From a virus, in the IMG/VR virus record IMGVR_UViG_3300010151_007942, positions 1 to 36,924 of that record: a stretch of DNA of 36,924 bases. One strand, given 5' to 3'. A program made the position numbers and the translations under genes. Of the stretch, positions 1 to 32,544 are shown in pieces (the first letter of the stretch is position 1; each line of letters opens with the position of its first letter). The notes beneath the pieces are model-generated. The model was given only the letters and a program-made list of their open reading frames with translations. It had not been told where the DNA came from and did not search any database.

Positions 1-1743
1 ATTATTTATATTCTGATATATGAAATTTTTAACATCGGATAAGGTTAGGTCATATTCTCTTTTCTCGTCGCGGTTCAAGAAAAATTCCAGAATATTGGCC
101 TGCGTAAATATCTCCGGTGCAATGAACCCGCGTGAAGTTAGTAGGCGTTGTGCCAATGGCGTTGGTCGGTGAGCATCATTGATACTTCCAGAAATGTATT
201 CTACATCCTTCAGGGTTGCAAGTGATTCAACCTGAAGATGGAGAGTATCTAAATAACTCGCCATTATCTGTGTTAACTTGCGGAGGTCGCCGCCCTCTCT
301 CCGCTCACTATCTTCTTCTATAATCCAACCGGGATATGAACTATAAATCGAAGAATTGTTGGTATCATCATAGTTTTTTCCTTCTTTCCTCTTTTTTGAC
401 AACAACGAAACTACATCTGGGTGGGTGGAGTAAATGATTGGGTCCTTGAATTCGGTTTCCGCTGAGCCAGCCAACACCATAGCAGACTCAGTTGATCTAG
501 AAGCAGATTCATACCCTACCCATGTACCATTGCTGATTCGACCAGAATAATCCAAAACCACCGAATCAATACCAGTCTTTCCGGTTATCCCTTCATTAAA
601 CTTATAATAAACACCCAAATTAGTATTGGCGGTATCTGTATTCGTGCCTCCACCGACTTGAGTGAACCAATGTCGACCTATATCTTGAGCATTTCGTTTT
701 GTTTTCCAACACCTGAACTCATCGATGGAGCCAGAAAGCTTACCCCAGCCTTCCATTTCAGTGCCCGCAAAGAGCGTTCCGGAAGGAGAAGCACGCAGGG
801 CTCCAATATTAGCAATGAGGGGACCAGCTATTTCATTGATACCCGATGTTCCAAGTGTGGTGTTTTGGTTCAAGTCACCATTAATATAAAATTTTGTTTC
901 AACTCCGGAAGAGGCGCTAAGAAAGCTAAAAGCGTAATGATTCCATGAAGCTAGAGAACCGGTGCCTTGGATAGAGGCGCCAATTTGTTGATTAAAATAG
1001 CCCGCTGTTCCAGATTGAGCAGTTATGCGGAATGGCGACTCGGACGCAGAAGTTCCCGAAATTTCGATAGTGAGCCTTCCATATTCTGCACTTGAAGAAG
1101 CTTCCCCATTCCAAAGATCGAAGAGGACCTCCTTGCTGGTATCGGCTGGTGTAAACCCATCTTTTTGCAACCAGAACTCAACAGTAAAACCATCATTTTG
1201 CAAATCACACTTGAGGTTGCTCTCTCGATTTTCTGAAGCATCAAGTATATTGGCCGTGCCACCTTCCGATGGATAGATTTTTGATAAAGCAGTATTGTTA
1301 GGATCCTCGTGGGGTCCACCCTTTACTTGGATATATCCATCGACATCTGATTGTCCATACTCTCCAAGTGTTGCCTGGAGCGTGCCCCAGCCCGTTGGCG
1401 AGAGAAGAGCGTGCCCGTTTGTTCGGGGATAATCATTTTCGAAAAGATGCTGATCAAGAAATGAAGAGCTTATTCGCCATTGTAGCTTTTCTTTAAGGGA
1501 CCCGTCATACGGGTACTGAACGTGGATTCTCGTAATCGCATCTTCATAGTAGCTTTCCGCCGAACCAAAAATCGCAAAATTTTCAGGCTTAGAGAAATCT
1601 ACCTGGGGGATATACGATTCCCGCTCTCCCAGAAAAACTCTTACGTAGTCTGCCGACTCAACATCGCTGCCAAGCTCATGGATACTTTTTTTAGAAACTA
1701 ACTTAGAGGCGGCGCTTTCGTCAAAAAGATCTTTAATACTCAT
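1..1743 (-). CDS. LamG-domain virion structural protein (partial, 3' end off the left edge)
   Basis: An open frame of 581 codons begins at ATG 1743 and reaches base 1 with no stop, so the C-terminus is missing. Residues about 170-350 look like a concanavalin-like LamG jelly-roll: a strand with FTVEFWLQKDG (186-196), then SWNHYAFSF (266-274), KFYINGD (284-290) and SGSIDEFRCW (337-346). These are the usual strand signatures of Laminin_G_3 domains, which bind carbohydrate or protein. The first 170 residues and the part after 390 are not recognised. The gene follows the DNRLRE-like gene after a 3-base gap (TAA GCC ATG). It occupies the place where T4 relatives carry wedge genes 7 and 8, so a baseplate or peripheral tail role, perhaps as an adhesin, is inferred. 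The domain call is fairly sure and the exact role is not. Confidence 0.8.
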   Translation of the reverse strand, partial: MSIKDLFDESAASKLVSKKSIHELGSDVESADYVRVFLGERESYIPQVDFSKPENFAIFGSAESYYEDAITRIHVQYPYDGSLKEKLQWRISSSFLDQHLFENDYPRTNGHALLSPTGWGTLQATLGEYGQSDVDGYIQVKGGPHEDPNNTALSKIYPSEGGTANILDASENRESNLKCDLQNDGFTVEFWLQKDGFTPADTSKEVLFDLWNGEASSSAEYGRLTIEISGTSASESPFRITAQSGTAGYFNQQIGASIQGTGSLASWNHYAFSFLSASSGVETKFYINGDLNQNTTLGTSGINEIAGPLIANIGALRASPSGTLFAGTEMEGWGKLSGSIDEFRCWKTKRNAQDIGRHWFTQVGGGTNTDTANTNLGVYYKFNEGITGKTGIDSVVLDYSGRISNGTWVGYESASRSTESAMVLAGSAETEFKDPIIYSTHPDVVSLLSKKRKEGKNYDDTNNSSIYSSYPGWIIEEDSERREGGDLRKLTQIMASYLDTLHLQVESLATLKDVEYISGSINDAHRPTPLAQRLLTSRGFIAPEIFTQANILEFFLNRDEKREYDLTLSDVKNFIYQNINN

Positions 1744-1746
1744 GGC

Positions 1747-3225
1747 TTACTCTACTCTAAATTTAAATACTTCAGGTTGTTCGTGATAAGCACCATTGAT
1801 GTAATAAACAAACTTTATTCCATATGAATAGCCCGTTTCCAACAGTTCCATATCTAAATCAAAGTAACCTCCGGAAACATCAAAAGACATCTGCGTGTGA
1901 TTATTGCTTCCCGTCCCGTATGGGATTGCTTCAAGCCCATCAATCACGCGGACAACTTTATAATATCCAGCTTCAATTGTTTCTGCCTGGATATTTGAAG
2001 TTGCCTTGGTGTAAATAGTGGGATTCCAATCTTTTTGTCTGGTGTAGAGCCTGAACCGGGCGACCTCGTCTTTATCATATTTTGACTTCAAGTTTGTAAT
2101 GTTGGTTACATATTTTGGATTCGGATTCCAATTACTAGATTCGAATGAATTTACAGTAATTGCTGACCCGGAATGATATTCTGTTGATCCACTGTGCCAG
2201 ACCGGATAAACCGTGGTTGCTGACCCGGTATATGCAAACGTCGCCGAGTACACCCCCGTAGATACATAACTTCCAGTTACATTAACATCATCATTTGCTG
2301 CGACGCCACCGCCGACTGGCAACGTAAACTTCGATGATCCAAGAGTTTCATACACGCTCAGAAGAATATTGTTTGTGCTTACGGCAGGAATATTTTTTAA
2401 TTGCCCGCGCACATAATTATAAAGGTACAGCGTATTGAGGTTATCTGTTGCATCCGCAAGAGAACTGCTTAGATAAAAGTTTCCTGCATCATCTTTTATC
2501 GCAGAGTCCCAACGAGCTTCAATTATCGGCCTCTTATAAAAGAACTCGGTTCCACGAGCAAAAAACTTTTTAGTGTAGAAGGATCTCTCTTGAGCACCAT
2601 TTTCTTGGCTAGAGGTTAAGAAGACTCCAACACCATAATTTTGACGAGCAGGGGCCACACCCGCATCTAGCCACTCCTCAACAAGGGAAGTTATATTTAT
2701 TTCTAAGTCTTCTGTGCCAAGAGGAAATTCTTGAGAATAGAACGGAAGAGTACTCCCAGCCACATAGGCGCCAGTATGATAATCTCCCCCTTCCGTAGTC
2801 CAGTTGGTTAATCCAGAATTGCCACTTGACGCAACAATCCAGTTAGCATATCCCTCATCTGAATATTCTTCCATATCCAACCCACGACCCTCATCCCACG
2901 AGCGTGAAACCGCATGCACAACAAGAGTAAACTCGCGAGGCAAAGTAAAAGCATGGGGAGTATTATAAAGGCGCAAATAAAAATCAACACTACCACTTGC
3001 CGGAATTGTTCCCGCAGTTCTGTCAGTCTGAATATTTGTCGTTGACCATTCGGATAGCATTCTACACTTTTCCAATGATGAACTCGTTTCCTGACCATAA
3101 ATCGAAAAAATCTCAGATACGTCGGAGAGGCCCATGCTTGAACCCGTGCCGCGCATAGTTAGATTGGCCTTGAATGCGTTTGTTATGGTTGTATCTTTGG
3201 TGGCTATGTATCTTTTAATCGACAT
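1747..3225 (-). CDS. DNRLRE-like virion structural protein
   Basis: The product has 492 residues. The N-terminal part (about 1-230) resembles the DNRLRE or carbohydrate-binding-like beta domain found in phage tail and secreted surface proteins: a DTTIT start, a GLS segment, a region rich in aromatic and Ser/Thr residues, and a late segment DLEINITSLVEEWLDAG followed by NYGVGVFLTSS. The remainder has repeated short SGS/GSS/GSA turns and alternating beta-type sequence, typical of tail-surface proteins. No catalytic motif is visible. Its ATG overlaps the stop of the gp6-like gene by one base (TAATG), so it is probably translationally coupled to the baseplate wedge gene. A structural role at the baseplate periphery is inferred from the neighbours. 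The domain assignment is from pattern memory and is moderately sure. Confidence 0.7.
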   Translation of the reverse strand: MSIKRYIATKDTTITNAFKANLTMRGTGSSMGLSDVSEIFSIYGQETSSSLEKCRMLSEWSTTNIQTDRTAGTIPASGSVDFYLRLYNTPHAFTLPREFTLVVHAVSRSWDEGRGLDMEEYSDEGYANWIVASSGNSGLTNWTTEGGDYHTGAYVAGSTLPFYSQEFPLGTEDLEINITSLVEEWLDAGVAPARQNYGVGVFLTSSQENGAQERSFYTKKFFARGTEFFYKRPIIEARWDSAIKDDAGNFYLSSSLADATDNLNTLYLYNYVRGQLKNIPAVSTNNILLSVYETLGSSKFTLPVGGGVAANDDVNVTGSYVSTGVYSATFAYTGSATTVYPVWHSGSTEYHSGSAITVNSFESSNWNPNPKYVTNITNLKSKYDKDEVARFRLYTRQKDWNPTIYTKATSNIQAETIEAGYYKVVRVIDGLEAIPYGTGSNNHTQMSFDVSGGYFDLDMELLETGYSYGIKFVYYINGAYHEQPEVFKFRVE

Positions 3226-5036
3226 TATCTAATGGTCCCCACAATATCTTGATCAGGGTACTTTACTTCAATAATAACATTCTTTGGAATATCTATGTAT
3301 CTGCCATCGGGATCTATTCGGCTGCTGATATCAAATGGGGCTGAGGAATATCCAACTTGATTTTTGGCGGCAACGTTAACTTCAACAACATCCAGAAGGC
3401 CCGGAACAGCGCGCAAAACAGAAAATACATCCGATATATAAAAGTTTTCGCCTATATCATATTTTTTTAATGAAAAGTACGATGCAAGGAAATCAGAAGC
3501 CGTCTTAAAAACATCATATCGATTTGAACCCCTTTCTGCAATCGCAGAAAAACTCACTTCAATATTCATCACCCACGCATCTAAAATATCAACAGTATCG
3601 TTTATCATCTTATGTCTTTCAATCCAAGACTTTAAGTTTGTTTTTATCACAGAGTTCGTGGTTGCTAATTTTCCTGACCCATCTTCGGAAACAACATAGA
3701 CATTCAGATTGCGCTTAAAGCTATCCGAATCTTGAACTATCACCGCGCGGCGAATACTGCCAAACTGCGAAGGCATACTATAAATTAAACTGATATAATC
3801 TTGTTTTGTCACTGCGCGGTTTTGTGTTGCAAAGTGTCCCAGTATTCTAGACTTTAATTCTTGTGGAGTTGGGAATGATACTTTCCCCACAATCGGCTCT
3901 AAGTTTGACACCTCCAAAGAAGAATTAACCCCTCGAACAAGGCTCGTGTCTAATATAACGCCTGCGCCAAGCGAAGGAAAGCGAATATTTCTCTTAACCA
4001 CCTTTGAAACACTTCCGACATTGGCATTCACCGCGCCGGGACTCGCAACTCGATATGATACGAGCAGCGTTGTATTGGCCGGGGCAATGCCAAGGGCATC
4101 GGTTTTTGTCATCTTGGACGGATCAAAACTAACTTGCGAAACATAATTTCTACCATGAATATTTAAAGTTAAATCAGAAGGATCTGGGATCATTACGTTG
4201 CTTAGGTTTTCCTCGGACCCATAACCAAACTGTAAAACAGTTTTTCTTACTCCACGGCTTACCGTGAACCGTCTCGGAACAATGACGGGCTTTAATAATT
4301 TTTTAACCTTGTCGTTGTGAACGCCAACATTATCCACCTCGATGTATACAACATTTTGTGATAAATGGTCTACCTCATAATAAGAATTACCATCCGAATC
4401 CTCCACAGAAACTATTTCTGCCACATTGGGATTGGATATCTCAGCGGTTGGGAATCTTCGATAACCGCCAACTTCAATAGATTGTACGCCCACATCACCA
4501 GACATCACCTGCCCAAAAGCCTTAATAGCATATTGAGTAGGCAAGCTAGAAATTGCATCTGTAGAGTGACAAACAACTTCCCACCTTGGGTCAGCAAAAT
4601 TTATATCTTCATTCAAAATAAAAGATTGATTATTTACAGAAGAAAACATAGTTCCCTTTTCCACAACTGGAATATACTGAGAGTCTGGGGATGTTCCAAC
4701 TGAACTCGCTGGGACGGTGATATACAGTGCAACGGTTCCGTAAGCGGTCTGTGCATTATTAAATTTATACCCCAGCTGCCGACCAATTCTGAGAATTGAA
4801 TCATATTGGTTGGCAGTTTCCAACATACTCTCGTTAGCTTGGTAATCGACATAGAAAGATAAAATATCACCAACATAAGCTACGGTGTCCAGCATGAGTG
4901 ATCCAAAAGAGGCTTGGTTAAAATCTTGGAATGTATTGGGGTAATACCTTTTTGCGTACGCAACCAAGTCTCTCTTGATGGATTGAAAATCTCGACTTGT
5001 ATAATCAATTGATGTTATTTTATTTTTTAAACTCAT
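3225..5036 (-). CDS. 6: Baseplate wedge protein, gp6-like
   Basis: The product has 603 residues and is close in size to T4 gp6 (about 660), which forms the ring holding the baseplate wedges together. The N-terminus carries the family's conserved opening, IDYTSRDFQSIKRDLVAYAK (residues 9-28), followed by a SFGSLMLDTVAYVGDILSFY segment and an ANESMLETA helix, which together are hallmarks of the gp6/gpJ baseplate family. A later segment around QNRAVTKQDYISLIYSMPS matches the second conserved block of this family. It sits directly downstream of the gp25-like gene (14-base gap), the common arrangement in marine T4-like phages. ATG 5036 is preceded by AGAGGGA about 10 bases upstream. The identification is confident. 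Confidence 0.92.
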   Translation of the reverse strand: MSLKNKITSIDYTSRDFQSIKRDLVAYAKRYYPNTFQDFNQASFGSLMLDTVAYVGDILSFYVDYQANESMLETANQYDSILRIGRQLGYKFNNAQTAYGTVALYITVPASSVGTSPDSQYIPVVEKGTMFSSVNNQSFILNEDINFADPRWEVVCHSTDAISSLPTQYAIKAFGQVMSGDVGVQSIEVGGYRRFPTAEISNPNVAEIVSVEDSDGNSYYEVDHLSQNVVYIEVDNVGVHNDKVKKLLKPVIVPRRFTVSRGVRKTVLQFGYGSEENLSNVMIPDPSDLTLNIHGRNYVSQVSFDPSKMTKTDALGIAPANTTLLVSYRVASPGAVNANVGSVSKVVKRNIRFPSLGAGVILDTSLVRGVNSSLEVSNLEPIVGKVSFPTPQELKSRILGHFATQNRAVTKQDYISLIYSMPSQFGSIRRAVIVQDSDSFKRNLNVYVVSEDGSGKLATTNSVIKTNLKSWIERHKMINDTVDILDAWVMNIEVSFSAIAERGSNRYDVFKTASDFLASYFSLKKYDIGENFYISDVFSVLRAVPGLLDVVEVNVAAKNQVGYSSAPFDISSRIDPDGRYIDIPKNVIIEVKYPDQDIVGTIR

Positions 5037-5050
5037 TAATTAAAATCCCT

Positions 5051-5425
5051 CTATAGTGGAATTGCCAATTGCAAAATGTCCACAGCGCTTAAACCTGAGA
5101 TCGCATACTCTATTTGAATATATAGTTTTTCAGATATTTCCCGATCCTCCCCCATTCGAACCCCCTTGATTTGAACAAAGGGCATATATTTTTTTACTTG
5201 ACTAAAAATTCTTTCTTTGATGTCTTCCCGTACCGACTCAATATTATGTTCAAATAAAAACGCTCTAATTCCTACTCCGAAATTGGGGTCCATAATCCTT
5301 TCTCCGGGCGCTGTTAATACAATGTTTTTTAGATTTTGTTGTACATTTTCTTGAATAGACTTCGTTAAAGTAAATCCATCTTTAGAATCACGAAGAACCG
5401 GGAGTTTTACTGAATATCCAAACAT
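5051..5425 (-). CDS. 25: Baseplate wedge subunit, gp25/GPW-like
   Basis: This 124-residue protein has the usual length for the GPW/gp25 family, which forms part of the wedge around the central hub in contractile tails and also occurs in type VI secretion systems. The diagnostic block LTAPGERIMDPNFGVGI lies at residues about 37-53, followed by AFLFEHN and then the usual EDIKERIFSQVKKYMPFV segment. Some family members were once called lysozymes, but no lysozyme active site is visible. ATG 5425 has a good ribosome site (AGAGGAAGG) and abuts the TAA of the possible 76-codon gene. The stop of the giant gene lies 29 bases upstream. The identification is confident. Confidence 0.93.
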   Translation of the reverse strand: MFGYSVKLPVLRDSKDGFTLTKSIQENVQQNLKNIVLTAPGERIMDPNFGVGIRAFLFEHNIESVREDIKERIFSQVKKYMPFVQIKGVRMGEDREISEKLYIQIEYAISGLSAVDILQLAIPL

Positions 5426-5656
5426 TTAACTCGCCTTCCTCTCTCTTATGGACATCATGGGCAACGACGGCCTCTCTTCTTTTTGTGTGGCGGGAGTGAT
5501 GGGATTTTTATATCCAGCAATTTTCTCAACCACGGCACAATACTGAACAGTGCTTTTAAAATCATCCACGGGAAAATTAACAATATTAGAGGGATCGGCA
5601 GCTCTAGCGGCTTCTGCCACCAACGATTTCTTGGTTTTGCTTTCATTGCCCACCAT
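5426..5656 (-). CDS. Possible small protein overlapping the 3' end of the giant gene
   Basis: An open frame of 76 residues starts at ATG 5656. Its first 202 bases lie inside the 3' end of the giant gene in another frame, and its TAA lies directly before the gp25 ATG (TAAATG). The product is hydrophilic, with a KSLVAEAARAAD helix-like stretch, the segment VNFPVDDFKSTVQYCAVVEK and a proline-rich tail ending in basic residues. A purine-rich GAGGGGG lies 13 bases before the start. I do not recognise the family. The exact abutment with gp25 argues for a real, coupled gene. Against it, the giant frame is also open and ends in a plausible hydrophobic helix with a basic tail. One of the two reading frames may be a shadow, so confidence is low to moderate. 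Confidence 0.4.
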   Translation of the reverse strand: MVGNESKTKKSLVAEAARAADPSNIVNFPVDDFKSTVQYCAVVEKIAGYKNPITPATQKEERPSLPMMSIRERKAS

Positions 5657-8600
5657 GATGGATGTTCGGACCCCCTCGCAACATTGTAGAGTTCTTTAAT
5701 TAAATCCTTCGTAGTCTTAAACATCATTTCTCGGTTTGGCAGCCCAGAAATGTGCTCAGCATTGTAAATAGTTGCTAAGCTAATTAGTCGCGTAGAGGGG
5801 ATCATGTATTCAAGAACCGCTTCATACTGAGGATTCTGAATAATTTGTTTCTTCAATATTAAAGAATTGTCGGCATGTATTTTTTCAAAACGAATGGCGG
5901 CTTGCGGAATTACAAGCTGATTCTCCATTCTCCCTATATAATACTCAAGCTGTTGTATCGCATTTATTATCTTATCGTAGGCTTCACAGTTGGCAGTCCC
6001 TAGCCTGCTGTTCGGATCGCCCGGGTCACGAAGACATCGGCGGGTTGGGGTCAGCCCGTCGGGCTCCATTGCCTCCAGCTGCTTTTCCAGAAAATCTTTA
6101 AAGTTCTCCATCATCACCTTCAACAGGTGATCTCCTGGTATCTCCGACAATTGCTCTGGCAAATCTTGTTGTAGCATATCCTCAAATGGTTTTTTTATTG
6201 AATACGTTAGCCAACCATGTACCCACTTGCGTCCCCACCTAAAATTTCGAGCACTAATTAGACCAAGGTCATCGGTATCGTATTTGTGTGGCTTCAAAAG
6301 GTCATCTACGAATGACTCATACCATAACGGACCAGCGATTCGCTCGCGTCGGTCAGTATATTCCTCCACCGTTTCAGATATCATTGGCCCATACAGCCTA
6401 GCATCGATATCTATATTGTGCGCACCAAGGTCTACGCCCAGCATATCCAGAGTCCACGCTTCTCCTTCCGGGCTACCGTAGAGGCCTCCTCGACAGCGAG
6501 CTTCTGGGTGGTCAGTGCTAAAATCTGATAAAAAGATTTTCGGCTGTAAATCGTTATCCTTAACTGCCGGTGACTTATTACAACCCGCGAGCGCATATAC
6601 CCCCGTAGTGCGGAGCGTACCGGGCGCTCCACTTTGGACACTGCCGGCGCCATTTGAAAGGCAACGAACGTGCCCTCCTGGCTGAGTGGTTGTCCAGTTG
6701 TTCGCTCGTGGAACTGTGGCCTCGCCGCCCTCCAATCCCGGGCCAGTTACCTGGTGGTACCTGCCGTACGCGTCCATCACCGTGACCTGCTCGTGCTGAC
6801 GGGTTTCGGAACCGGGGTGCGCAGGAAACGTTCGTTGTCGACCTTCGCGATCTTTATCGGTATAGTATTCCGAAGGTTTATTATATATTAGGTCACTGTC
6901 GCGCACTGGGTCCTCGCCGTTCTGGCGAACGGCCAAGGTCCACTCTGGTGGTGCATCGTCAGCGTTAAACTGAAACTCGCCGCCAAAAGCTCCCCAAACA
7001 TTAAATCCAAAAAGCCTGTATCCCAGGTCCCATATTTTCTTTACCATTTGCCAATACTGAGAATTCGACCCGTCTCCTCGGACGCGCTCGAAATCTGGCT
7101 GAACGGCACTTTCCCCACCCGGTAGAGATCGATTGCCGCTATAAAAATTGCCATCCGGGCCTAGTCTAGGTCTGCTCACGGCCTCTGACCAAGGCTCCAT
7201 CCAAGGGGGAACAACGCGACCGCCCCAGTTCTGGAGCCAGCCGGTCTTCCGCAATGGAGAGTTCGCGTTGCTCCAGGAATAAGCATACGCAGAATAATAA
7301 AACTCGCTTTGGTCACCCTGCCGACATGCGCTGTCATATGGAAGAACAAAATTATTAAACTTGATAGCATCATCTTTAAATCCGGGGTCGCCAGAAAGAC
7401 CATTTTCTATCGGATCTAGAAAAACGTCTTGTATGGATTGAATACAAGCTTGAATTGCAGATCTAGTATCATTATGAAGGGCGGGAAATTTTATGTCTGC
7501 GGACTGTAATTCTACCAAACCTTCCATCAGTGGCAACGTTTTTATATCTACGATTTCCTCGCTGGTCTCAAGATCTAAAAGAGTGCGAGCATTGGGGTCG
7601 TTTGGGTCTTCAAGTTCGACCTGATTTCTGAATGTCAGATCTTCTTGCAATAAATGGCTTTTATTTGTTTGAATAAACCGCTCGACTTGAGGCTGCATTG
7701 GCTCAGCAAATGTCTCGGCCAAATCAGAATTCAAATTTATTCTTCCGGGGCCGCCATGTTCTAGCGGGTAAACGAAGGTTAATCTTGTTCCCATCTCCCA
7801 TTTATCAAAATATTTTGTAATATTAAGGTATGGTTTCCCATCAGCGGGCTTAACAAACAACCCCAACTCTTCATGGTAATCAAGAAGCGTGCGGACCCAG
7901 TCCGACCATGCTTGTAGATTTACAACACCAAATAAACTAGAATCTCTATTTTTAATTAAACTTTCTGCCCTATTCGCAGTCGCGTCTCCATACTCAGCTC
8001 GGAGAGTCCCGAGAATAATCGGCCAGTCTTCCTCAAAGCTTTTGTCTGTGATCTTAACAAATCTTTCCAGCACAAAGCCACCATGCGTACCTAAGCCGGC
8101 CTTACAGAAATCATATTTTAAAGAACCGGGCTGAGTATCACAATAAATATCTCCTATGGGCTCATCGTCAGACCCGCGTTGCGCATTTAGAATTTCGTCA
8201 GTTGAATCCGACAAGCTTCTCATAATGTAATTTTCTAATTTTGAAGCAGGCGGATAAACATTCTGTTTTATTTTCCAAGTGATAACTTTTGAGCTACCGT
8301 TATCTCGGCCATCGCCGCCGAAATTTTCTCCACAATGGTTATCGCCGTCTTCGAGCTTGTAGTCAAACCACTGTGTCCACACAACCTCACCGGCGTTCAC
8401 CTCTATCATACCGGGGTCACTAAATTTATTTTGATTCCACGTCCAGCGCCAGCGCGTGGCGTAGTCGTAGCGCTCGCCGTCAGTTTCAAGGGAAACAATC
8501 CTATGGTCGGTCCCGCCGAAGCGGTTCCAGGTTGCACAGTCAAGTACAATCGGCTCAGCGTCAAAAATCTGCTCACTAACATCAAACCCAATTTCATCAA

Positions 8601-11600
8601 GGGCAGCTCTGAATCTCTGTCCCTCCTCCTCAACATTGTTCTGCACAAAATTATGAATATTTTCGCCCTGTTCTCGCAGAACGCCCCAAGCCCAATAGAC
8701 CTCTGCCAGTTCAGAGTTCCCCAATTCATCTCTAATCGATTCCTCATTAACGGAAAAAGGCTCATTTGAATCCTCGGTTCCAAAGCCTATAAAAAATCTA
8801 GGTTTTCCAATGGGACTAGTCTTCGGGACATCCACGACTTCTGCTATTTCATTTAGCCAGCTTACTGGAGTAATGTGCCCCTGCAGCACAGTATCATATT
8901 CGCCGGCCATCGATGCTACGAGATCCCTAACTGAATATTCCATGAAGCCCATGGTTTTTTTGCCAGTATCAGGATCGATTGATTCGGTTGACCACATATT
9001 AGAAAACGTCATGTTGCCAACCTCAAAACACTCAGAACCCTCTATTTGACAAACTGGGACCTTTTCCACCGAGACATCAGCGGGCTCCCGGCCCTCCAGT
9101 GTCTTTCCACCCGTAAGGTTCTTTTGGGCCTCCTCTGTATTCGGAAGATTCAACTCAAATAGTTTTTCGCTAGCAAGCAGTAGCTCAATAGGTTCTCCGG
9201 TAAGAGGGTCTTTAAATTCTTCTCGATCATCATACTTTCTACTTAACAGGTCTTGATCAATCCGAAAAACCAGATCTTCAAAAAATGGTATATTTTCTAC
9301 GAAGCCGCCCTCGAACGTCAAAACATTGCTTTCGGTGAGGCCGGATTTCTTATTAAATCTATTGATGAAGTACCTAAATAATAAATCTGATTTGGCAACA
9401 GAGCTAAACTTAAATTCAGAAAACACAAAGATAGAATCTAAAAGCATTTCTATCAAAAAGATTTTCATATAAGCTACGCCAATGCCATAAGTTATTGCTG
9501 CAGTATTTCTTTGAGGATCCAAGAGAAGAGATCGGGCAGCATGGCTGGTTGTTCTCCTTCTCAAATCGTTAACGTTCAAGAGACCCTCCGGCCTTGGGTT
9601 ACAAAACGAATCTGATGAAAAGTCAGCTTCTATTATTTCCTCTTTACCGTCATCCGGGGCTAGTTTTAAAAACCTGCCGGCTTTCATAATATCAAAGACT
9701 TGCCCAAGTACATATTTTATCAACTCGGGATAAAGATGCTCCATGTGATATTCTAAAAAGGCCTCTGAGTTTTCTAGATATGTGCGCGCGTTAACTGCGC
9801 TAGAAACAGGAAGCTCCATCCATTTTCCAAGTAAATAATTATTAAATGCCTCAACTGGAGGGGCCGCGACGCCTCTTATCGGGTGTCCAAGCTGTTCATC
9901 CGTCACCACCGACAAAACAGCTGGTGTTAGCAGCTTTTCTCCATTAAACGCAAAATATAATTCTCCAGGTACTCGCCAACCCTCTACACGATAAGCATCC
10001 AAAATTCTGTCCCACTGCGTTCCGGGATCTACTTTTGGACAAAGTTCATATTTAATAAGTTTTCGCTCAATTCTATCGGGGGTGGATGTTGGAATGGTCC
10101 CGGGGCCGTTCTTCTGTTCCCATATATTAAAATCCTTGGATCCACCATGCCTTCCAACAGCACGGCTTGTATAGAAGTTATCATCCCAAACTCTTCTAGG
10201 GGGCAAAACCAACCAAGTTGAACTTTGTGCAGGATTCTGGACGTTCATTATAACTGTGTCACGGTTGTTTGGATCAAGCCAATTTTCATACTCATCGTAG
10301 GAATTATCCATTACCGTTGGTGCAACCACCACCTGGATTGCTTTTGGCTCTGCACCGAGGCCGTCGGCGAGTAATTCCATCACGGGGTGGGGCTCGGCCG
10401 CGTCGGGGATGGGCTGTGCCGTGACCTGCTGAAAAGGGGCAATTGTATCAACATGATAATTATAATCACTATTATACTGATCTTCAATTGGTGTGAATAC
10501 CGTATCCTTCACTATATCATTTAAAAACTTAACAGAGGGTGGCTCTCTTGGAACCAGTCCATTAGGGTTCGCCGGGTCTTGAAAAATCGATGGCATCAAC
10601 CCGGCCGCAAAATCTTCTCCGCCAGCCGATTTCTTTGCTAATTCAATTATTCCTTCGGCACGGGCAGTATCACACTTCGCCGCTTCCGTGAGAAGTTCCC
10701 GAATTTGTTCAGCGGTGGCTCTCCCGTTTGCCAGATTTTCTCTGAACTCACTGTTCTCGCACAGTGAATTTGTACCCTCAGTATCGGCTGCTGCCATTAG
10801 GTCAGCAAGATTATTACAAATTTCAAGATCTATCATCTCACCAAGCATCGTATAAAGATTTATTACACGCTGCGTAGTTGACCATTGAGCACGAACTGAT
10901 GGATAGCTTTCAGCTATCAACTTCTCTACTATGTTCACCGTTGGCAAGTCAGCATTTCCAGTAAGAAGCGAACAAAATTCTTTTGGTTTTAAAATCGTAG
11001 AAGTGTCCTTTAACAACTGGTTTAGGATATCCGGGTCAATTATATCTGATGGAAGGCTGTTCTGCTTTAATCCCTGGTTCAGGGCCGGCAGATCAATGTC
11101 GCCATATGATCTATCAAAGTTAAGAGCGAAGGCTTGTTGTTGGGGTCCTTTTGTCTCGCACTTCCACGAAAAATCAAGCATCAACGATATTATCTGAACA
11201 ATAAATTGAATTATAAGATTAATTACGGCGTTCAAAATAATTGTCATAATGTACGCCAGAATATCAACCGTTGGGAGTCTATCGGGGATGGTAAATCTTG
11301 GGGGCCACTCAAATGGCAAACATGCACACAATAGTGGTATTGTTTTACAAATATCACTGCACCCTATGAATGCGGCCTGGGCTCGTAATATATCAGCCTG
11401 GATGAGGGACGCTGTATCACCTCCCACACCATTGTTTTCAAGCCAGATGGCCTTCTCCTCTAATTCATTGCACGCACAATCAATCAGCATTCTTATTTTT
11501 TCCTTAAAATCTATTTTTGCTAAGGCTTCATAATACAGACGATTGAGCATGTGTTGTCCCATGGCCGAATCGAGAGCGCCGAGTTCGAGAGGATCCTCGC

Positions 11601-13401
11601 CCTCTAAGAGCTTTTTCGTTTGAGAGGTTGTTTTGGTGGTCGCGCCCGTTAGTATTTCTTTAACAATTTGATTAATTTCACCTTGCCATGGATCTCCCAC
11701 AAACTCTGAGCTTGGGCCACCGTGTCTGTCCCACGCCTTTAACCACTCGTCCTTGTCGATTCGAGTTATAAGCTTGTCTCTTTCCTCCTCAGTAACAAAT
11801 GGAGCCCACGGAAGCTCATAGTCGTCCATGCCGCCAGATTTATACGCATCAGCAATTGTTGGATTACTGCCAAGTGGAGTTAAGTATTGTCTGCTCTCGG
11901 GGGATATCCAATCACATTTTAAATCCATCTTGTGCCAGTCTTTCCACTTTTTAAAATCTCCCCACGCGTTGTCACCAAATGTGTTGCTAAAGGAACTTTT
12001 AATACAATCCCAAGAATCTAGTGAATTAGGATCACATTTCTTTTGTTTTTTTGTAAATGACGGTTTTGGAAAAGTATATTCTTCAATCAACTGTTTCCAA
12101 CCTTTGGGCATTTCTTTGGTTTTTTTCACCAAATTATAAAGCTCATTCATCCGAGCTACATAAGCCAAGGTTCTTGGATAATTAAATGGATGAGTCCGCA
12201 ATAAGGTAGAAAAGCCCACTGTCAAAAATACTACACCAACATCTCCGCTATTAACCAATATATATTTTATATTGTATTGATCATCGAGGGCGACCTCATA
12301 AGTGTCGTTGGAGCGTTCGTTAAGCGCTAAACCATTTAATGTTAACAGCCTCCTAAAATTAGAAAGAAAAAGCTGTAAATTAGATGCCTCTTGTTTAAAA
12401 TTAAAAAATCCATATTCTGGGGCTGGTCCATTCCACGAGCCATTTTGCCCGCGCCAACTTCGATATCCATCATAATGTTTGAACATATCGCTTAGTGCAT
12501 TTATTTGAACCTCAAATGTCTTTGCTAAAAGAAAAATGTTTTGAGACGAATCGGGAATTATAATTTCTTTTTCTGGTATCGCATTAAAATACTTAGCGTG
12601 AACAGAAACAAGAACTTTTAAAGGAGATCGAGCGCTAGATGGATCAAGCCACCAGCTTGTTGCTTTGGCAAACTTAAAACCATTTAATAATCTGCCCACT
12701 GTTTCATTATCGCTGGCCTTGGCGTAGTGTTCCAAAAGAGCCTTGACACCAATGGGGATTTGCTCTTCCATTCGAGATTGAAGAGCGCTGTCGCCTGTAT
12801 TATAATACTGAGTTGTGACTGAAACCAAGTACTCACAAGAATCAGAATCAAAATACGGCTCTGTTGTGGTGTACCACTGGGGGGTAGTCAATGCACAAAA
12901 TTCATCAACTTTTGCGGCAATAGTTTCGATACAGGTGCCGAACACCATCTCGTTTGATTGGGGAGTAGTGTCGAGAGCGAGAGCGCCAATGCGCATAGTT
13001 TCTGTGTCTTGTAGCGCTGCTGGAATTTCTCCCAATCCACTATAGATATACCCCACCAGCCCATCCACTTCAGGATTTGTATCAACAACAGAGACAAAAT
13101 GCCAAGCACCATTTCGACCCACCCTTTCGTCGAGAACAACAAGCAAAGTCTTGTGACTGAGACCGGCAATAACCTCTGCTCCGTCCCTATACGGCAAATC
13201 TGAATAGAGGTTCGCACAATAATTGAGAGGAACAACATCGCCGGCTTCAGTATACCCATATCGAATAACATCATCTGACGCGTTGCCGCCCCAATAAAAA
13301 ACCCAGTGTGTTGCCTCAGAATTCTCCCAATTCGTGGGAGGGGACACAAAATTGTCCCATGCTTCTCTATCCGCTGCCAACTGTCTATGTGTAAGAGACA
13401 T
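5455..13401 (-). CDS. Giant 2648-residue putative tail/baseplate-associated protein
   Basis: One frame stays open for 2648 codons from ATG 13401, which is preceded by GGGAAAGG with good spacing. I do not recognise a family. The sequence is rich in Trp, Tyr, Pro and Asp and has many scattered Cys, so it looks like a set of folded domains rather than a long coiled-coil tape measure. A strongly hydrophobic segment lies at residues about 711-742 (YIMTIILNAVINLIIQFIV and on). A second lies near the end (about 2597-2622, PLILLIFPWMILKALFSIV), followed by a basic tail with KKKRGRR. It is bracketed by the spike/hub-type genes and gp25/gp6, so it probably belongs to the tail or baseplate. Alternatives are an internal protein ejected with the DNA or a host-envelope-interacting protein. 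The last 202 bases overlap another open frame. Confidence 0.85.
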   Translation of the reverse strand: MSLTHRQLAADREAWDNFVSPPTNWENSEATHWVFYWGGNASDDVIRYGYTEAGDVVPLNYCANLYSDLPYRDGAEVIAGLSHKTLLVVLDERVGRNGAWHFVSVVDTNPEVDGLVGYIYSGLGEIPAALQDTETMRIGALALDTTPQSNEMVFGTCIETIAAKVDEFCALTTPQWYTTTEPYFDSDSCEYLVSVTTQYYNTGDSALQSRMEEQIPIGVKALLEHYAKASDNETVGRLLNGFKFAKATSWWLDPSSARSPLKVLVSVHAKYFNAIPEKEIIIPDSSQNIFLLAKTFEVQINALSDMFKHYDGYRSWRGQNGSWNGPAPEYGFFNFKQEASNLQLFLSNFRRLLTLNGLALNERSNDTYEVALDDQYNIKYILVNSGDVGVVFLTVGFSTLLRTHPFNYPRTLAYVARMNELYNLVKKTKEMPKGWKQLIEEYTFPKPSFTKKQKKCDPNSLDSWDCIKSSFSNTFGDNAWGDFKKWKDWHKMDLKCDWISPESRQYLTPLGSNPTIADAYKSGGMDDYELPWAPFVTEEERDKLITRIDKDEWLKAWDRHGGPSSEFVGDPWQGEINQIVKEILTGATTKTTSQTKKLLEGEDPLELGALDSAMGQHMLNRLYYEALAKIDFKEKIRMLIDCACNELEEKAIWLENNGVGGDTASLIQADILRAQAAFIGCSDICKTIPLLCACLPFEWPPRFTIPDRLPTVDILAYIMTIILNAVINLIIQFIVQIISLMLDFSWKCETKGPQQQAFALNFDRSYGDIDLPALNQGLKQNSLPSDIIDPDILNQLLKDTSTILKPKEFCSLLTGNADLPTVNIVEKLIAESYPSVRAQWSTTQRVINLYTMLGEMIDLEICNNLADLMAAADTEGTNSLCENSEFRENLANGRATAEQIRELLTEAAKCDTARAEGIIELAKKSAGGEDFAAGLMPSIFQDPANPNGLVPREPPSVKFLNDIVKDTVFTPIEDQYNSDYNYHVDTIAPFQQVTAQPIPDAAEPHPVMELLADGLGAEPKAIQVVVAPTVMDNSYDEYENWLDPNNRDTVIMNVQNPAQSSTWLVLPPRRVWDDNFYTSRAVGRHGGSKDFNIWEQKNGPGTIPTSTPDRIERKLIKYELCPKVDPGTQWDRILDAYRVEGWRVPGELYFAFNGEKLLTPAVLSVVTDEQLGHPIRGVAAPPVEAFNNYLLGKWMELPVSSAVNARTYLENSEAFLEYHMEHLYPELIKYVLGQVFDIMKAGRFLKLAPDDGKEEIIEADFSSDSFCNPRPEGLLNVNDLRRRTTSHAARSLLLDPQRNTAAITYGIGVAYMKIFLIEMLLDSIFVFSEFKFSSVAKSDLLFRYFINRFNKKSGLTESNVLTFEGGFVENIPFFEDLVFRIDQDLLSRKYDDREEFKDPLTGEPIELLLASEKLFELNLPNTEEAQKNLTGGKTLEGREPADVSVEKVPVCQIEGSECFEVGNMTFSNMWSTESIDPDTGKKTMGFMEYSVRDLVASMAGEYDTVLQGHITPVSWLNEIAEVVDVPKTSPIGKPRFFIGFGTEDSNEPFSVNEESIRDELGNSELAEVYWAWGVLREQGENIHNFVQNNVEEEGQRFRAALDEIGFDVSEQIFDAEPIVLDCATWNRFGGTDHRIVSLETDGERYDYATRWRWTWNQNKFSDPGMIEVNAGEVVWTQWFDYKLEDGDNHCGENFGGDGRDNGSSKVITWKIKQNVYPPASKLENYIMRSLSDSTDEILNAQRGSDDEPIGDIYCDTQPGSLKYDFCKAGLGTHGGFVLERFVKITDKSFEEDWPIILGTLRAEYGDATANRAESLIKNRDSSLFGVVNLQAWSDWVRTLLDYHEELGLFVKPADGKPYLNITKYFDKWEMGTRLTFVYPLEHGGPGRINLNSDLAETFAEPMQPQVERFIQTNKSHLLQEDLTFRNQVELEDPNDPNARTLLDLETSEEIVDIKTLPLMEGLVELQSADIKFPALHNDTRSAIQACIQSIQDVFLDPIENGLSGDPGFKDDAIKFNNFVLPYDSACRQGDQSEFYYSAYAYSWSNANSPLRKTGWLQNWGGRVVPPWMEPWSEAVSRPRLGPDGNFYSGNRSLPGGESAVQPDFERVRGDGSNSQYWQMVKKIWDLGYRLFGFNVWGAFGGEFQFNADDAPPEWTLAVRQNGEDPVRDSDLIYNKPSEYYTDKDREGRQRTFPAHPGSETRQHEQVTVMDAYGRYHQVTGPGLEGGEATVPRANNWTTTQPGGHVRCLSNGAGSVQSGAPGTLRTTGVYALAGCNKSPAVKDNDLQPKIFLSDFSTDHPEARCRGGLYGSPEGEAWTLDMLGVDLGAHNIDIDARLYGPMISETVEEYTDRRERIAGPLWYESFVDDLLKPHKYDTDDLGLISARNFRWGRKWVHGWLTYSIKKPFEDMLQQDLPEQLSEIPGDHLLKVMMENFKDFLEKQLEAMEPDGLTPTRRCLRDPGDPNSRLGTANCEAYDKIINAIQQLEYYIGRMENQLVIPQAAIRFEKIHADNSLILKKQIIQNPQYEAVLEYMIPSTRLISLATIYNAEHISGLPNREMMFKTTKDLIKELYNVARGSEHPSWWAMKAKPRNRWWQKPLELPIPLILLIFPWMILKALFSIVPWLRKLLDIKIPSLPPHKKKRGRRCP

Positions 13402-14346: not shown

Positions 14347-17172
14347 TTATCTACTCTCCGCCGCGCGATGGTCCTTGTCGCGAATAAGGGACTTTAGGGC
14401 CTTTATAATTGCTCGACTGGTTCGTTCTTCCGTCGGTACGCTAGTCCATGGGGGCACGATTTTTTCGATGATGCCCTGCCAACTCGCGCCGTCTTTAAAG
14501 ATCGACATGGTAATAAACAAGTCGTTTTTTTGATGGGCCAGCTTCAAACTCTCAACTTCTTCTCTTGCTTTTCTTAGTTCGTGGTTGAGATTGCCGAGAC
14601 GTTCGAGGGCAGCCGGGGACCGAGCCTGTCCGATTCTCTTTTGAAGTGCATCTACTTTCCTTTGGGCCTCGGCCAGTTTCTGCCTTGACCCCTTCATTGA
14701 ATTATAAATGTTATCTGAATATCCTGATATGAACGACTCTTTAGAGGTGATCTCGCGATCATGTATCAAAACAAATACCCTATAATCACCTTCGTGTTCC
14801 AATGCGGCGACGATCTGATTTTTTATTGTCCCTTGCTGTCCTTCTGACACAACAAGCCCCGTCCCAACAAACTCCACGTTTACAGAGTCGGGGGTAGACC
14901 AATTCTCACGAATCTCTTGAACTGTTAAGAGTTTCGGCAGTAGACTCTGAAGGTTAAGGGGCGGTATCCACCTTTTCGTATTCGTCAGGTGAACACCGGT
15001 TGACTTTTGAATTGATTCCTTTATGGCCTCCTTACCTGCCAAGACGAGATCTTCTCTGTTGTCGGGGTGGGGAAGTGGGGGGAAAGGTTCGTTCCCCTTA
15101 AGCATGCCCGCAGTAGCCCACCATGCATCTTCAACTGAATAGCCGGCAGCATATACTGCTATAAGAAAATATATTTGATGGCGTCCGTCCGTGCGGTTGC
15201 CGTCCCAGCGAGAATGGGCGGCGATTCCTATTAGGGGAGTTCGCCGTATCCTTATGTTGGCGGGGGGCCACGCGGGACTTCCATTTACCCCAGGGAAAGC
15301 ATCGGGAAGCTGTCTTCGGGCGGTGTAACTAAATCGACCCGGGTGGCCGTTGGAGGGTTCTCCGTCGTTGCCAACGCGCAGGCTCTGCCAGGTTCCGTTG
15401 GGCGACCAGCGCTTAAGGGCCATACAAAATTTTGGCGTCCCGTTATCATCTGGCTCACCACTATCATTAACTTTAATCACCGCGAACGGAAAAAAACGAG
15501 ATACCCACTCTCCATAACTCTCGGGGCCGTTGGGGTCTCTGCCATATTCATTTGCCCTTTTGTCAGGGCTGGACAGCCAATCCTGATAAATTGAAAAAAG
15601 TTTAGGGTGGTTCGTGGAATCGTTGATAAGCGCCTCCACGAGTTCATCCAACAACCTCATCTGAGAAAACGAGGGGATTTGGTAATTCTTCGGCGAGTCT
15701 GAATTGCCCCCCCGGCCATAAATAGTTATTGGACGGTCGCGTCTGGACCCTACCTTCTTTTTTTTGTTCTTCCTCTTTCTCAAATTCGGACTGAATGTCA
15801 TATCCACTCCAATCGTAGACGAGTTGGTCCATTCACCATGATTAGATATTTCCAAAGTATGAAAATGTTGAGTTATGATATCGCCAGAATCCAGCGTTGG
15901 GCTCCTAATTATAAAATGAGAGGAAGCGCCTTCTTTTGTCCACGTCCTCAAAACATTCGTTTCACCCTGGGCGAATTCAGTTTCGGGTAATGTTTCTGGG
16001 GGGTCGGGGAGGGTTCCACAACCTCGGCCTTCGCAGTCGGGGCCTCGGCGAGCCTGCCAGCGGAGCCGGTACGGAGAAGCAGTATCATGCATCACAATCC
16101 CCGTTACTAGGGGGCCATCGCGACTAGCATCAAAATCAGGGTACCCAGGAAACAGGCCGCCGCGAGGAATTGTTGCCCTGGTTCCACCCTGACTGGGGTA
16201 TCTTATCCCCCGAAGGGTTCCCGGAACATCAACAAGGGGGCCGGTGTACCATTTACAATGGCATTTTAGTTGGGCGGCGGTATTGTAATGGCCTTCGATG
16301 CCGACAGCTGTCCACCCCACACATCCCATTCCAGCTTGCTGCTTCTGGGCGTTGTTTTGGCGAGGCGGCACCGATGCACATGGATCAGGTGTCGGCGCTT
16401 GCGTCTGCTCGCCTACGGCTTGGCATTGGTTCTCACCGCCGCTGCGTTGAGGGGCCGTTTCGGCAGCAGTTTGATTAGAATTATAACTTCTGCGGCGTGG
16501 TCGGGGGGCGTCGAGGGAACTTTCCTCATCGTCAGAAGAAATTCGACAGTTAATCTCTTCTTTTATTTTTTTAAAGTCTTTTTTTTGTTCTTCCTCTTTC
16601 CCTGCTGCCATAACTGCGGACGCAACTATCTCGCTGGCTGCGGCAACAATATATCTCGCTGCAGCCACGTGGGCCTCGTACACCCCGTCCGTACCCCAAT
16701 CAGCATTTCCAAAACTCACACGAATAATCGATCCACATGCAGGCACGTCTAAATCCGTGGTAGCAGCAACAAAAAGAGGATATCTACTAATCTTGTGTTG
16801 GTGTGGATCAGTATGCTTTCCCTCATCTCCATATCGTAAGGGGCAGCGCAAGCCTGCATGCAACTCTGGGATGCGGGCCCACACCTTTACCAAATTTAAT
16901 TTTGCTTCTCCGGGCTCTGTATACGAGCCAGCGCCAGACTTTGTGTTTAAAAAATTTCGGCGTGAATTATATTTTTCTACCCGCAACACAATTGCATTCC
17001 ACTTACCAGAACTGGTAAGGGAAAACTTTTGAGTATACGATTCTACTGCCCTCTTGATTGAAATCCCCTTCAAATTAGTTGTTTTTGGATCAAGCGTCGG
17101 GGCTGTAAAAGCTTTTCGTACGTTGTTAAGCTCCCCAATTGGAAAATCGCAGGGAGGCACCTTCTTAGGCAT
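14347..17172 (-). CDS. Baseplate hub protein, gp5-like, with N-acetylmuramoyl-L-alanine amidase domain
   Basis: The product is about 941 residues. Residues about 45-170 resemble the OB-fold start of gp5/VgrG-type hubs (KVWARIPELH, then PACGSIIRVSFGNADWGTDGVY). A charged, Pro/Gln/Cys-rich linker covers about 190-290. Residues about 355-670 form an amidase of the Amidase_2/PGRP type: VMHDTAS with zinc ligand H363, SSHFIIR near 420, IGVDM near 456, and a second ligand in AAHSRWDGNRTD (H654, D663). It would cut the amide bond between N-acetylmuramic acid and L-alanine so that the tail tube can cross the cell wall. In T4 gp5 the inserted enzyme is a lysozyme, so here the catalytic module differs. 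A coiled coil follows (about 820-885). ATG 17172 is preferred over GTG 17175, because GGGAG lies 6 bases upstream. Confidence 0.85.
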   Translation of the reverse strand: MPKKVPPCDFPIGELNNVRKAFTAPTLDPKTTNLKGISIKRAVESYTQKFSLTSSGKWNAIVLRVEKYNSRRNFLNTKSGAGSYTEPGEAKLNLVKVWARIPELHAGLRCPLRYGDEGKHTDPHQHKISRYPLFVAATTDLDVPACGSIIRVSFGNADWGTDGVYEAHVAAARYIVAAASEIVASAVMAAGKEEEQKKDFKKIKEEINCRISSDDEESSLDAPRPRRRSYNSNQTAAETAPQRSGGENQCQAVGEQTQAPTPDPCASVPPRQNNAQKQQAGMGCVGWTAVGIEGHYNTAAQLKCHCKWYTGPLVDVPGTLRGIRYPSQGGTRATIPRGGLFPGYPDFDASRDGPLVTGIVMHDTASPYRLRWQARRGPDCEGRGCGTLPDPPETLPETEFAQGETNVLRTWTKEGASSHFIIRSPTLDSGDIITQHFHTLEISNHGEWTNSSTIGVDMTFSPNLRKRKNKKKKVGSRRDRPITIYGRGGNSDSPKNYQIPSFSQMRLLDELVEALINDSTNHPKLFSIYQDWLSSPDKRANEYGRDPNGPESYGEWVSRFFPFAVIKVNDSGEPDDNGTPKFCMALKRWSPNGTWQSLRVGNDGEPSNGHPGRFSYTARRQLPDAFPGVNGSPAWPPANIRIRRTPLIGIAAHSRWDGNRTDGRHQIYFLIAVYAAGYSVEDAWWATAGMLKGNEPFPPLPHPDNREDLVLAGKEAIKESIQKSTGVHLTNTKRWIPPLNLQSLLPKLLTVQEIRENWSTPDSVNVEFVGTGLVVSEGQQGTIKNQIVAALEHEGDYRVFVLIHDREITSKESFISGYSDNIYNSMKGSRQKLAEAQRKVDALQKRIGQARSPAALERLGNLNHELRKAREEVESLKLAHQKNDLFITMSIFKDGASWQGIIEKIVPPWTSVPTEERTSRAIIKALKSLIRDKDHRAAESR

Positions 17173-17467
17173 CACCGTCTCCCAGGTTAATCAGATCAAA
17201 CAATTCTTTTTTATCTTCTTCTGTCAGATCATCCGAATCCTTAGAACCTTTCTGGATTAATGCAGTTAACTTAACAAGTTGTTCATTGGAGCGCTGGAGG
17301 GTCTCAACATATTTGGCAGCAATCATGCCAATCTCTTTGTGAGTGTGCCCTGATTTTTGGATTTCAGCGAGAAGATCAGTAAGGAGATATTTTACTGTGT
17401 CCCGGTCGTGTCTTATGTTTTTAATAGATTCATTAATGAAATCTTCTAAATCTTTCCCGCGTCCCAT
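17165..17467 (-). CDS. Conserved small helical protein, unknown function
   Basis: The product has 100 residues, is almost entirely predicted helix and is very charged. It opens with MGRGKDLEDFINESIKNIRHD and ends in an acidic stretch SDDLTEEDKKELFDL. No catalytic motif, signal peptide or membrane segment is visible. Its start overlaps the 3' end of the late sigma gene by 22 bases, and its stop overlaps the hub gene start by 8 bases. It is therefore expressed with the late sigma factor and the baseplate hub. It could be a transcription accessory or an assembly chaperone, but the sequence does not decide. The ribosome site is weak (AAGAAAAA), which suggests coupling to the upstream gene. Confidence 0.75.
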   Translation of the reverse strand: MGRGKDLEDFINESIKNIRHDRDTVKYLLTDLLAEIQKSGHTHKEIGMIAAKYVETLQRSNEQLVKLTALIQKGSKDSDDLTEEDKKELFDLINLGDGDA

Positions 17468-18168
17468 TTTTTCTTAAAAACCCTATATTTTATGCGCAGC
17501 TTATTAAGATTGTTAACAACCTGTTTTGTGTTCAAATCCGTTAGTTCTCGCAAGTATAGATAAATAGCTTTCTTATTGAAAATTTCGATATTGTCAGAAC
17601 TCTCAAATAGTATCTTCACGGCTTTTAATACTTTTTGTTCATTTTCCTTCAACAGATCCTTATCCCACGTCTCAACTTCTATAAAGAAATTTTCCCAAAA
17701 CTCTTTTGTTTCCCGATTATGAATATATTTATGATGCGTGATCATGCGAGTGTCTTCGACACCCTTGAAAGCTTCTTCATATTGAACTTCCCGTTCATTA
17801 TGAAACTTGTTTTTCTTTACTTTGTGGATGAACCAATTTTTCGTTATAACGCTGAAATAACTAAAGGCCTTCGAGCCCTTGGTTGGATCAAACTTATCCA
17901 AGATGGTGGTTAGCCAAATTTTACAATCGTCCTTTAAGACATCGATGTTGGGAAGGGATGTAAACTTGTATGTATAAGCAATCTTATCCACCATTTCATT
18001 AAATGCTGGTTGGATATAGTCCACATAAAGCTCTGTCCGAACCTTCATGTCTGTTGAAGCACAATAATCCAGAATTGCCTTTTCATGCACTTCTGTGAAA
18101 TAATAATTTTTCTTCTTTTTTCTACGCTTGCGCTTCTTCGGCGCTGTCGGTTCCGTCATCCAATTCAT
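17446..18168 (-). CDS. 55: Late-transcription sigma factor, gp55-like
   Basis: The product is about 240 residues. The region KDDCKIWLTTILDKFDPTKG, followed by KAFSYFSVITKNWFIHKVKK, matches sigma region 2 as found in T4 gp55, the phage sigma that directs host RNA polymerase to late promoters of TATAAATA type. A strongly basic run (KKRKRRKKKK) sits near the N-terminus. The C-terminus (KYRVFKKKWDAGKI) lacks an obvious hydrophobic and acidic sliding-clamp tail like that of T4 gp55. The frame opens at 18225, but I choose ATG 18168 or 18159. AAGGAGAGG lies just before them, and this limits overlap with the upstream membrane-protein gene to 38-47 bases. Family assignment is confident; the start is uncertain by a few codons. 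Confidence 0.88.
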   Translation of the reverse strand: MNWMTEPTAPKKRKRRKKKKNYYFTEVHEKAILDYCASTDMKVRTELYVDYIQPAFNEMVDKIAYTYKFTSLPNIDVLKDDCKIWLTTILDKFDPTKGSKAFSYFSVITKNWFIHKVKKNKFHNEREVQYEEAFKGVEDTRMITHHKYIHNRETKEFWENFFIEVETWDKDLLKENEQKVLKAVKILFESSDNIEIFNKKAIYLYLRELTDLNTKQVVNNLNKLRIKYRVFKKKWDAGKI

Positions 18169-18463
18169 CCTCTCCTTCTTCTCGGGTGAGATCGTAAATA
18201 TCTTCAAAAACTTTTGCTTCTTCAAGTATAAAGCTTGTGTGATCCATTAATCCTTTTAGGGTTGAATCTCCATAAAACATCTCCATTTCATAAAGGCTCT
18301 CAAGGTGTTCGTGATATTCTTTTATCAGCCCCACCATGTCTCCGATATTATCGGATACAAAAAGTAAATCACCTATAACTTGTCTACTATACCAAATCAA
18401 AAAAACATTCAATGCGATTGAAAGTACAAGCAATAAGGATAAAATTACTATTGTTAATATCAT
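18122..18463 (-). CDS. Small membrane-anchored protein with acidic tail
   Basis: The product has 113 residues. The first 25 form one clear hydrophobic helix (ILTIVILSLLLVLSIALNVF), probably a signal anchor. A helical soluble part follows (SDNIGDMVGLIKEYHEHLES), and then a very acidic tail rich in Glu and Asp. I recognise no family function. A single-span anchor with a cytoplasmic or periplasmic helical domain is the most that can be said. The ATG overlaps the stop of the zinc-ribbon gene as ATGA, and the 3' end overlaps the start of the sigma gene. The acidic tail is encoded by the same bases that encode the basic N-terminus of the sigma factor in another frame. Confidence 0.78.
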   Translation of the reverse strand: MILTIVILSLLLVLSIALNVFLIWYSRQVIGDLLFVSDNIGDMVGLIKEYHEHLESLYEMEMFYGDSTLKGLMDHTSFILEEAKVFEDIYDLTREEGEDELDDGTDSAEEAQA

Positions 18464-18912: not shown

Positions 18913-18929
18913 CCTTTTTTATTAAAAGG
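18913..18929 (-). promoter_or_regulatory. Weak hairpin covering the ribosome site of the 64-residue gene
   Basis: On the minus strand CCTTTT (18929-18924) and AAAAGG (18918-18913) can pair around a 5-base loop, spanning the stop of the GDP-mannose dehydratase gene. The right arm contains most of the AAGGAG ribosome site. With only two G-C pairs the stem is weak, so it is at best a mild translational control element and not a convincing terminator. Confidence 0.2.
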
Positions 18930-20852: not shown

Positions 20853-20855
20853 ACT

Positions 20856-22024: not shown

Positions 22025-22057
22025 GTCGCCCTCCATTGAAATCCTTTTACTCCAAAA

Positions 22058-23143: not shown

Positions 23144-23164
23144 TTTATCACCCCGCCCATCGTG

Positions 23165-24251: not shown

Positions 24252-24254
24252 CGT

Positions 24255-31516: not shown

Positions 31517-31538
31517 TATTCACTTTTTCCAAATATGG

Positions 31539-32531: not shown

Positions 32532-32544
32532 TACCAATCCTCCT

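Follow-up and report, generated by a model that had tools for sequence, protein, structure and literature searches.

The window, by which we mean the whole 36,924-nucleotide stretch analysed here (an entire 36.9-kb virus record, itself a fragment), carries on its minus strand a run of tail genes in which a very large ORF separates a spike-like gene from homologues of the baseplate wedge proteins gp25 and gp6 (Table 1). The ORF opens with an ATG and continues for 2648 codons without a stop, beginning 16 bases past the spike-like gene and ending 29 bases ahead of gp25. An earlier note, made from the letters alone, had described a 2648-residue protein of unknown family amid hub and wedge genes at this place, a description that holds and to which the minus strand can now be added. 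As for the neighbours it named, gp25 is supported by its PHROG match, while the spike-like gene matches no family in PHROG and profile searches; we infer the spike identity of P0002 from its position and from its homology to longer proteins found at the same place in sister lineages.

Table 1. Features of the window; residue numbers refer to the giant protein unless another protein is named
Feature	Position	Strand	Description and basis
Giant gene	5455..13401	minus	2648 aa; homologues known in relatives
SH3-like segment	13045..13182	minus	residues 74-119; iterated HMM common to 8 other members
Core module N	12049..12900	minus	residues 168-451; HMM, 60 members; AF2 pLDDT mostly >90
Core module H, helical	10459..11364	minus	residues 680-981; HMM, 75 members and divergent ones
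Hydrophobic helix of module H	11176..11262	minus	residues about 714-742
Near-invariant Cys881 of module H	10759..10761	minus	73/74 aligned members
Core module M3	9289..9489	minus	residues 1305-1371; HMM, 56 members
Core module M4	7705..8283	minus	residues 1707-1899; HMM, 34 members
Core module C	5458..6417	minus	residues 2329-2648; separate gene in a nested clade
C-terminal hydrophobic stretch	5530..5607	minus	residues 2599-2624, followed by a basic tail
gp6-like baseplate wedge protein	3225..5036	minus	phrog_219, E=1e-19
gp25-like baseplate wedge protein	5051..5425	minus	phrog_261, E=2e-19
Spike-like protein P0002	13418..14344	minus	308 aa; HMM and synteny; upstream of the giant clade-wide
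Pre-spike protein P0003	14347..17175	minus	942 aa; Amidase_2-like at residues 357-459, E=0.008, below cut-off

A chance ORF can be dismissed because a 2652-aa homologue in contig L006 aligns over the full length, from Met1, which matches Met1 of the giant, to the end, with 54% identity over 2490 aligned residues. The richness in Trp and Cys remarked on earlier is borne out by measurement, at 2.5% Trp and 1.3% Cys, whereas gp6 and the genes on its far side contain 0.2-0.3% Cys. Likewise, the hydrophobic helices expected near residue 725 and at the C-terminus, the latter with its basic tail, are both present in the window protein. Across the family, a mean hydropathy of at least 1.6, the usual threshold, is reached by the module H helix in 33 of 75 members, and a value of 1.6 is attained within the last 160 residues in 18 of 111. 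Since the H helix is strongly hydrophobic in fewer than half of the members, an amphipathic or buried helix is favoured over a conserved transmembrane segment.

Profile searches, which the earlier note had proposed as a check, connect the giant with no known family, whether tape measure or other, in keeping with its remark that no domain was recognisable. There were no Pfam matches at E<=1, hydrolase domains included (profile sensitivity being limited in the unmatched linkers), a single insignificant PHROG match (E=0.012) and none among PDB sequences; the core, queried as single sequences and as alignments, matched no Pfam, PHROG or PDB profile. Neither tblastn with the giants of the window, L010, L061 and L186 against 50,697 phage records nor peptides of the giant itself, scanned against viral contigs, returned a relative. 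Relatives were instead reached via gp6: scanning with one gp6 sequence brought up six contigs, two profile scans yielded 80 loci apiece, and the DNA upstream of gp6 in these contigs repeatedly holds a giant ORF. The contigs come from IMG/VR, with near-duplicates removed by hand, so that some may remain. Titles of MAGs with related gp6 genes suggest marine samples, and one MAG contig is assigned to a Maricaulis bin, although the binning of a lytic phage contig into a MAG does not name its host. We found no description of the family in the open-access literature, and, because it has no Pfam or PHROG entry, its genes would be annotated as hypothetical despite taking up mostly 5-9 kb per genome.

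All informative contigs of the clade have the spike-like gene followed by the giant, then gp25, then gp6, as traced with HMMs of the two wedge proteins and of the spike-like protein, and the spike gene lies upstream of the giant in 62 of 64 complete single-gene members. The length of these 64 has a median of about 2026 aa; the shortest giant with a spike gene measures 634 aa (L156), the longest complete one 3026 aa, and four more run off the contig end at 3166-3196 aa, so that the family spans 634 to more than 3196 aa. The last 566-612 residues form a separate gene in one nested group (L027, L029, L030, L035, L038). Sister lineages do without a giant: the spike adjoins gp25 directly in L080, L081, L086, L089 and L091, a 530-aa protein stands between the two in L083, and the core HMMs find nothing significant in the same-slot proteins of these lineages. 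In a maximum-likelihood tree of 148 gp6 proteins, built by a quick method with no bootstrap, all 91 giant-bearing rows are set apart from the others by a single branch (SH-aLRT 100), one state change being required, and the window's closest partner is L006, followed by L186. The tree thus shows that the giant was added once, in one clade of uncultivated phages with contractile tails. Their contractile tail is indicated by the gp25 and gp6 homologues that adjoin the giant in the window and across the clade, and by Phage_sheath_1 matches over the cut-off in the relatives G001 and G008, none being seen in the window fragment.

The spikes differ along the same divide, those of giant-bearing phages having a median of 315 aa and lacking about 200 N-terminal residues found in the sister lineages, where spikes measure 445-582 aa. 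A search for this N-terminal region in the pre-spike proteins gave one marginal match, so that movement of an OB-like domain from one gene to another is not demonstrated.

Iterated HMMs, seeded from segments of the window protein and refined on the very 111 sequences in which the modules were then counted (fragments in many cases), define a colinear core of five modules, N-H-M3-M4-C, found in 60, 75, 56, 34 and 69 of the 111, respectively. Module H is the best conserved and most general of these; with filters off, it is also detected in L065, L070, L074, L134, L135 and L136, and the short L156 has it at E=1e-7. Besides the near-invariant Cys881, Pro706 is kept in 65 of 68 aligned rows, and the N-H alignment contains no conserved polar constellation, its near-invariant positions being one Cys and Pro or Gly residues. 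An alignment across all C-terminal halves was too noisy and was replaced. The linkers vary in length, and most of those in the window yield only L006 from a smaller set of sequences. Accessory domains are present in few members. The SH3-like segment, predicted by AF2 as strands at pLDDT 80-89, is matched by PF08239 (SH3_3) in four of eight orthologous segments, all under the Pfam cut-off (best E 1.7e-5, 25.3 bits against a cut-off of 27), the window's own copy being unmatched. In addition, L049 carries a PG_binding_1 domain between N and H (E=1.3e-7), and L066 a LamG-type domain (E=1.6e-5).

Structure prediction, another check proposed earlier, resolved module N and part of H and led to no known PDB fold. 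In an AlphaFold2 model of window residues 60-990, built with 74 sequences at a mean pLDDT of 71, N is a well-defined, compact alpha/beta domain, and H, in its better part, forms helices at pLDDT 70-87. Against the PDB, Foldseek gave this partial model no match at E<=1e-3, and its VIA-align rows are short overlaps of helices; the best VIA-align scores for the two partial models made here, Z of 6.4 over 68 residues and 3.9, are unspecific. Against BFVD, the same model matched A0A1B1IUZ9 (1491 aa) at E 5.8e-20, A0A516MAR9 at E 4.9e-18 and A0A516M7H3 at E 2.2e-9, all at probability 1.00, with whole-model TM-scores of just 0.17-0.44. The models thus indicate that these three viral proteins are evidently members of the giant family, which, given the strength of the matches, would already sit in public protein tables without a name; no function is attached to them there, so they add no explanation. 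A model of the C-terminal half, made on L186, was poor (pLDDT 61) and had no match in structure searches of BFVD and the PDB.

The size of the giant, its hydrophobic segments and its place inside a tail gene cluster might suggest a tape measure displaced to the baseplate cluster, a reading that is disfavoured and that we regard as highly improbable. In G001, the contig of L064, two adjacent genes near the tail sheath (L098:298-5135) encode paralogous helix-rich proteins, P0008 and P0009, of 737 and 875 aa, sharing 28% identity, and G008, the contig of L186, has an 851-aa homologue near its sheath. Composition, position and weak PhageMin_Tail (PF10145) matches of the 875- and 851-aa proteins, under the cut-off, mark these as putative tape measures in two giant-bearing genomes, so that the giant most likely is not the tape measure. 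Helix formers amount to 39% and Trp to 2.5% in the giant, compared with 50-54% and 0.3-0.4% in the tape-measure-like proteins; the giant is neither mainly helical nor poor in Trp and Cys, does not lie beside tube or sheath genes, and contains the compact alpha/beta domain N. Composition, fold and separate sheath-side genes thus bear out the earlier impression that the protein is unlike a tape measure. Two tape measures in one phage, as in G001, would be unusual. The sheath clusters of G001 and G008 also share a further large gene with what we read as a gp27-like ending, and tblastn with the tape-measure-like P0008 and the hub-like P0010 matched no annotated phage.

Within the baseplate cluster, the giant keeps pace with the genes on its spike side. 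Comparing the window with L006 and with L186, identity is 33 and 26% for the pre-spike protein, 55 and 39% for the spike and 54 and 32% for the giant, against 64 and 46% for gp25, 74 and 54% for gp6, 82 and 73% for the gene that follows and 75 and 62% for a second giant. Median Cys content in the clade follows the same division, with 0.73% in the pre-spike protein, 0.65% in the spike and 0.71% in the giant, compared with 0 in gp25 and 0.33% in gp6. Because both divergence and Cys content follow the pre-spike and spike proteins and not gp25 and gp6, we read the giant as a member of the spike complex; rapid divergence and Cys content would also fit an effector or a peripheral adhesin. The weak amidase-like stretch of the pre-spike protein in the window and an M23-like ending in that of L064, seen in the sequence and in weak peptidase matches, suggest that the pre-spike gene encodes a wall hydrolase. 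Between relatives (window 14347-17175; L115:14929-16332), this hydrolase seems to be swapped, amidase-like in the window and L006 and M23-peptidase-like in L064. The second giant starts after gp6 (window 1-1743, minus strand), where cyanophages have gp7/VrlC; it carries a LamG domain (E=3.9e-9), has its continuation at L006:13297-21807 and in G006, the contig of L006, and reaches 3104 aa in that contig and 4178 aa in G001.

The centre of contractile baseplates is thought to be small and conserved, consisting of spike, gp25 and gp6, and it is exactly there that one of the largest genes of this clade was inserted. Judged by gp6, the closest isolates are Microcystis phage Mel-JY01 and the Flavobacterium phages immuto (30-33%), and these lack a giant; nor does one lie beside gp25 in two cultured phages, pelagiphage HTVC008M and cyanophage S-SM2. 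Two proteins share the slot close to gp25, the 530-aa protein that separates spike and gp25 in L083 and a chitinase-like protein near gp25 in Mel-JY01; neither has HMM similarity to any core module, and the latter is annotated as a hydrolase, whereas the giant is not recognisable as one. The cell-puncturing complex of T4 gp5, with its OB domain, lysozyme and beta-helix, is likewise located on the spike side. T4 has no giant partner, however, the giant contains no detected lysozyme or beta-helix, and the wall hydrolase and spike here appear to be separate neighbouring genes, P0003 and P0002. In the 595-kb uncultured phage LR756511, an ORF of 1640 aa lies upstream of gp6 at a distance of a few genes (L005:9218-14140); L005 was part of the first search set, and the core HMMs find no similarity in this ORF.

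Giant baseplate proteins are known from cyanophages and pelagimyophages as gp7/VrlC (PMC7029224), and they resemble the present protein in being giants of a baseplate cluster near gp25 and gp6; they follow gp6, however, and the protein described here lies upstream of gp25. A peripheral baseplate or receptor-binding protein, that is, a giant part of the wedge or rim whose variable inserts bind surface glycans before contraction, would accord with the big variable inserts, the LamG-type domain of L066, the adjacency to gp25 and gp6 and the existence of giant cyanophage wedge proteins such as the one annotated gp7 in S-SM2, whose gene exceeds 4150 codons. Such a role nevertheless seems unlikely, given that the giant lies on the spike side of gp25, that its divergence and Cys content follow that side, and that the gp7/VrlC slot downstream of gp6 is already taken by the second giant. 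Similarly, size, hydrophobic helices, rapid divergence and the lack of a fixed length could point to a tail-borne enzyme or effector delivered to the periplasm or cytoplasm, like large internal virion proteins. This we consider quite unlikely, since no enzyme family appears in the window giant, nor widely in 21 members, the N-H alignment is devoid of catalytic-looking conservation, and, by established tail geometry, the tube of a tail could not take up so large a protein in folded form, so that delivery would have to be unfolded or from outside. An assembly factor or scaffold of the spike-hub complex, absent from the mature virion, is the remaining alternative. T4 possesses small hub-assembly proteins, which serve as a precedent, and spike and hub genes are neighbours here; yet the cost of so large a protein and the cell-wall-binding-type domains of some members, which would have no evident use in assembly, make it a very doubtful proposition.

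We hold the chances to be about even that the giant is a structural virion protein of the baseplate, on its hub and spike side, of single origin and with inserts that contact the envelope; most likely, it is a huge, rapidly changing part of the host-attacking tail tip. The proposal draws on a family with a fixed slot, a colinear core with variable linkers, a single origin and a spike-like pace of change. The protein would be present in the virion, which gene order does not prove, and its helical core may dock on the hub beside the spike. Its variable inserts, which in some members are of SH3, peptidoglycan-binding or LamG type, would face outward so as to engage the cell envelope upon tail contraction. 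The pre-spike protein would then supply the wall hydrolase and the spike the tip, which the giant may grip or guide through the envelope. A bolder and rather doubtful version would make it a hitherto undescribed sleeve or collar around the spike, combining a conserved core with exchangeable wall-binding inserts; its gene would have been inserted a single time in the gap separating spike from gp25 and would then have spread through a large uncultivated clade, with roughly fivefold differences in size. Of the three functions that the earlier note had entertained, a baseplate or hub part fits best. A membrane-penetrating device is weakly supported, the hydropathy threshold being reached by a minority of H helices and C-terminal ends, and an ejected enzyme is unsupported, with no catalytic family and no conserved polar constellation in the N-H alignment.

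The clade keeps the giant although nearly all linker residues change, which points to a kind of tail tip not shown by the cultured model phages. Tractable targets for structure determination and localisation are offered by the boundaries of the modules, by the C gene where it stands alone and by the 634-aa member. Elsewhere in the window, sugar genes form a long series (18922-36643, minus) that shares the strand of the tail genes and includes three nucleotide-sugar epimerases, several glycosyltransferases, a sulfotransferase and methyltransferases. Near the start of the baseplate run lies a late sigma factor-like gene (17446-18225, minus; phrog_234, E=5e-5), and a similar gene occupies the equivalent place in G001.
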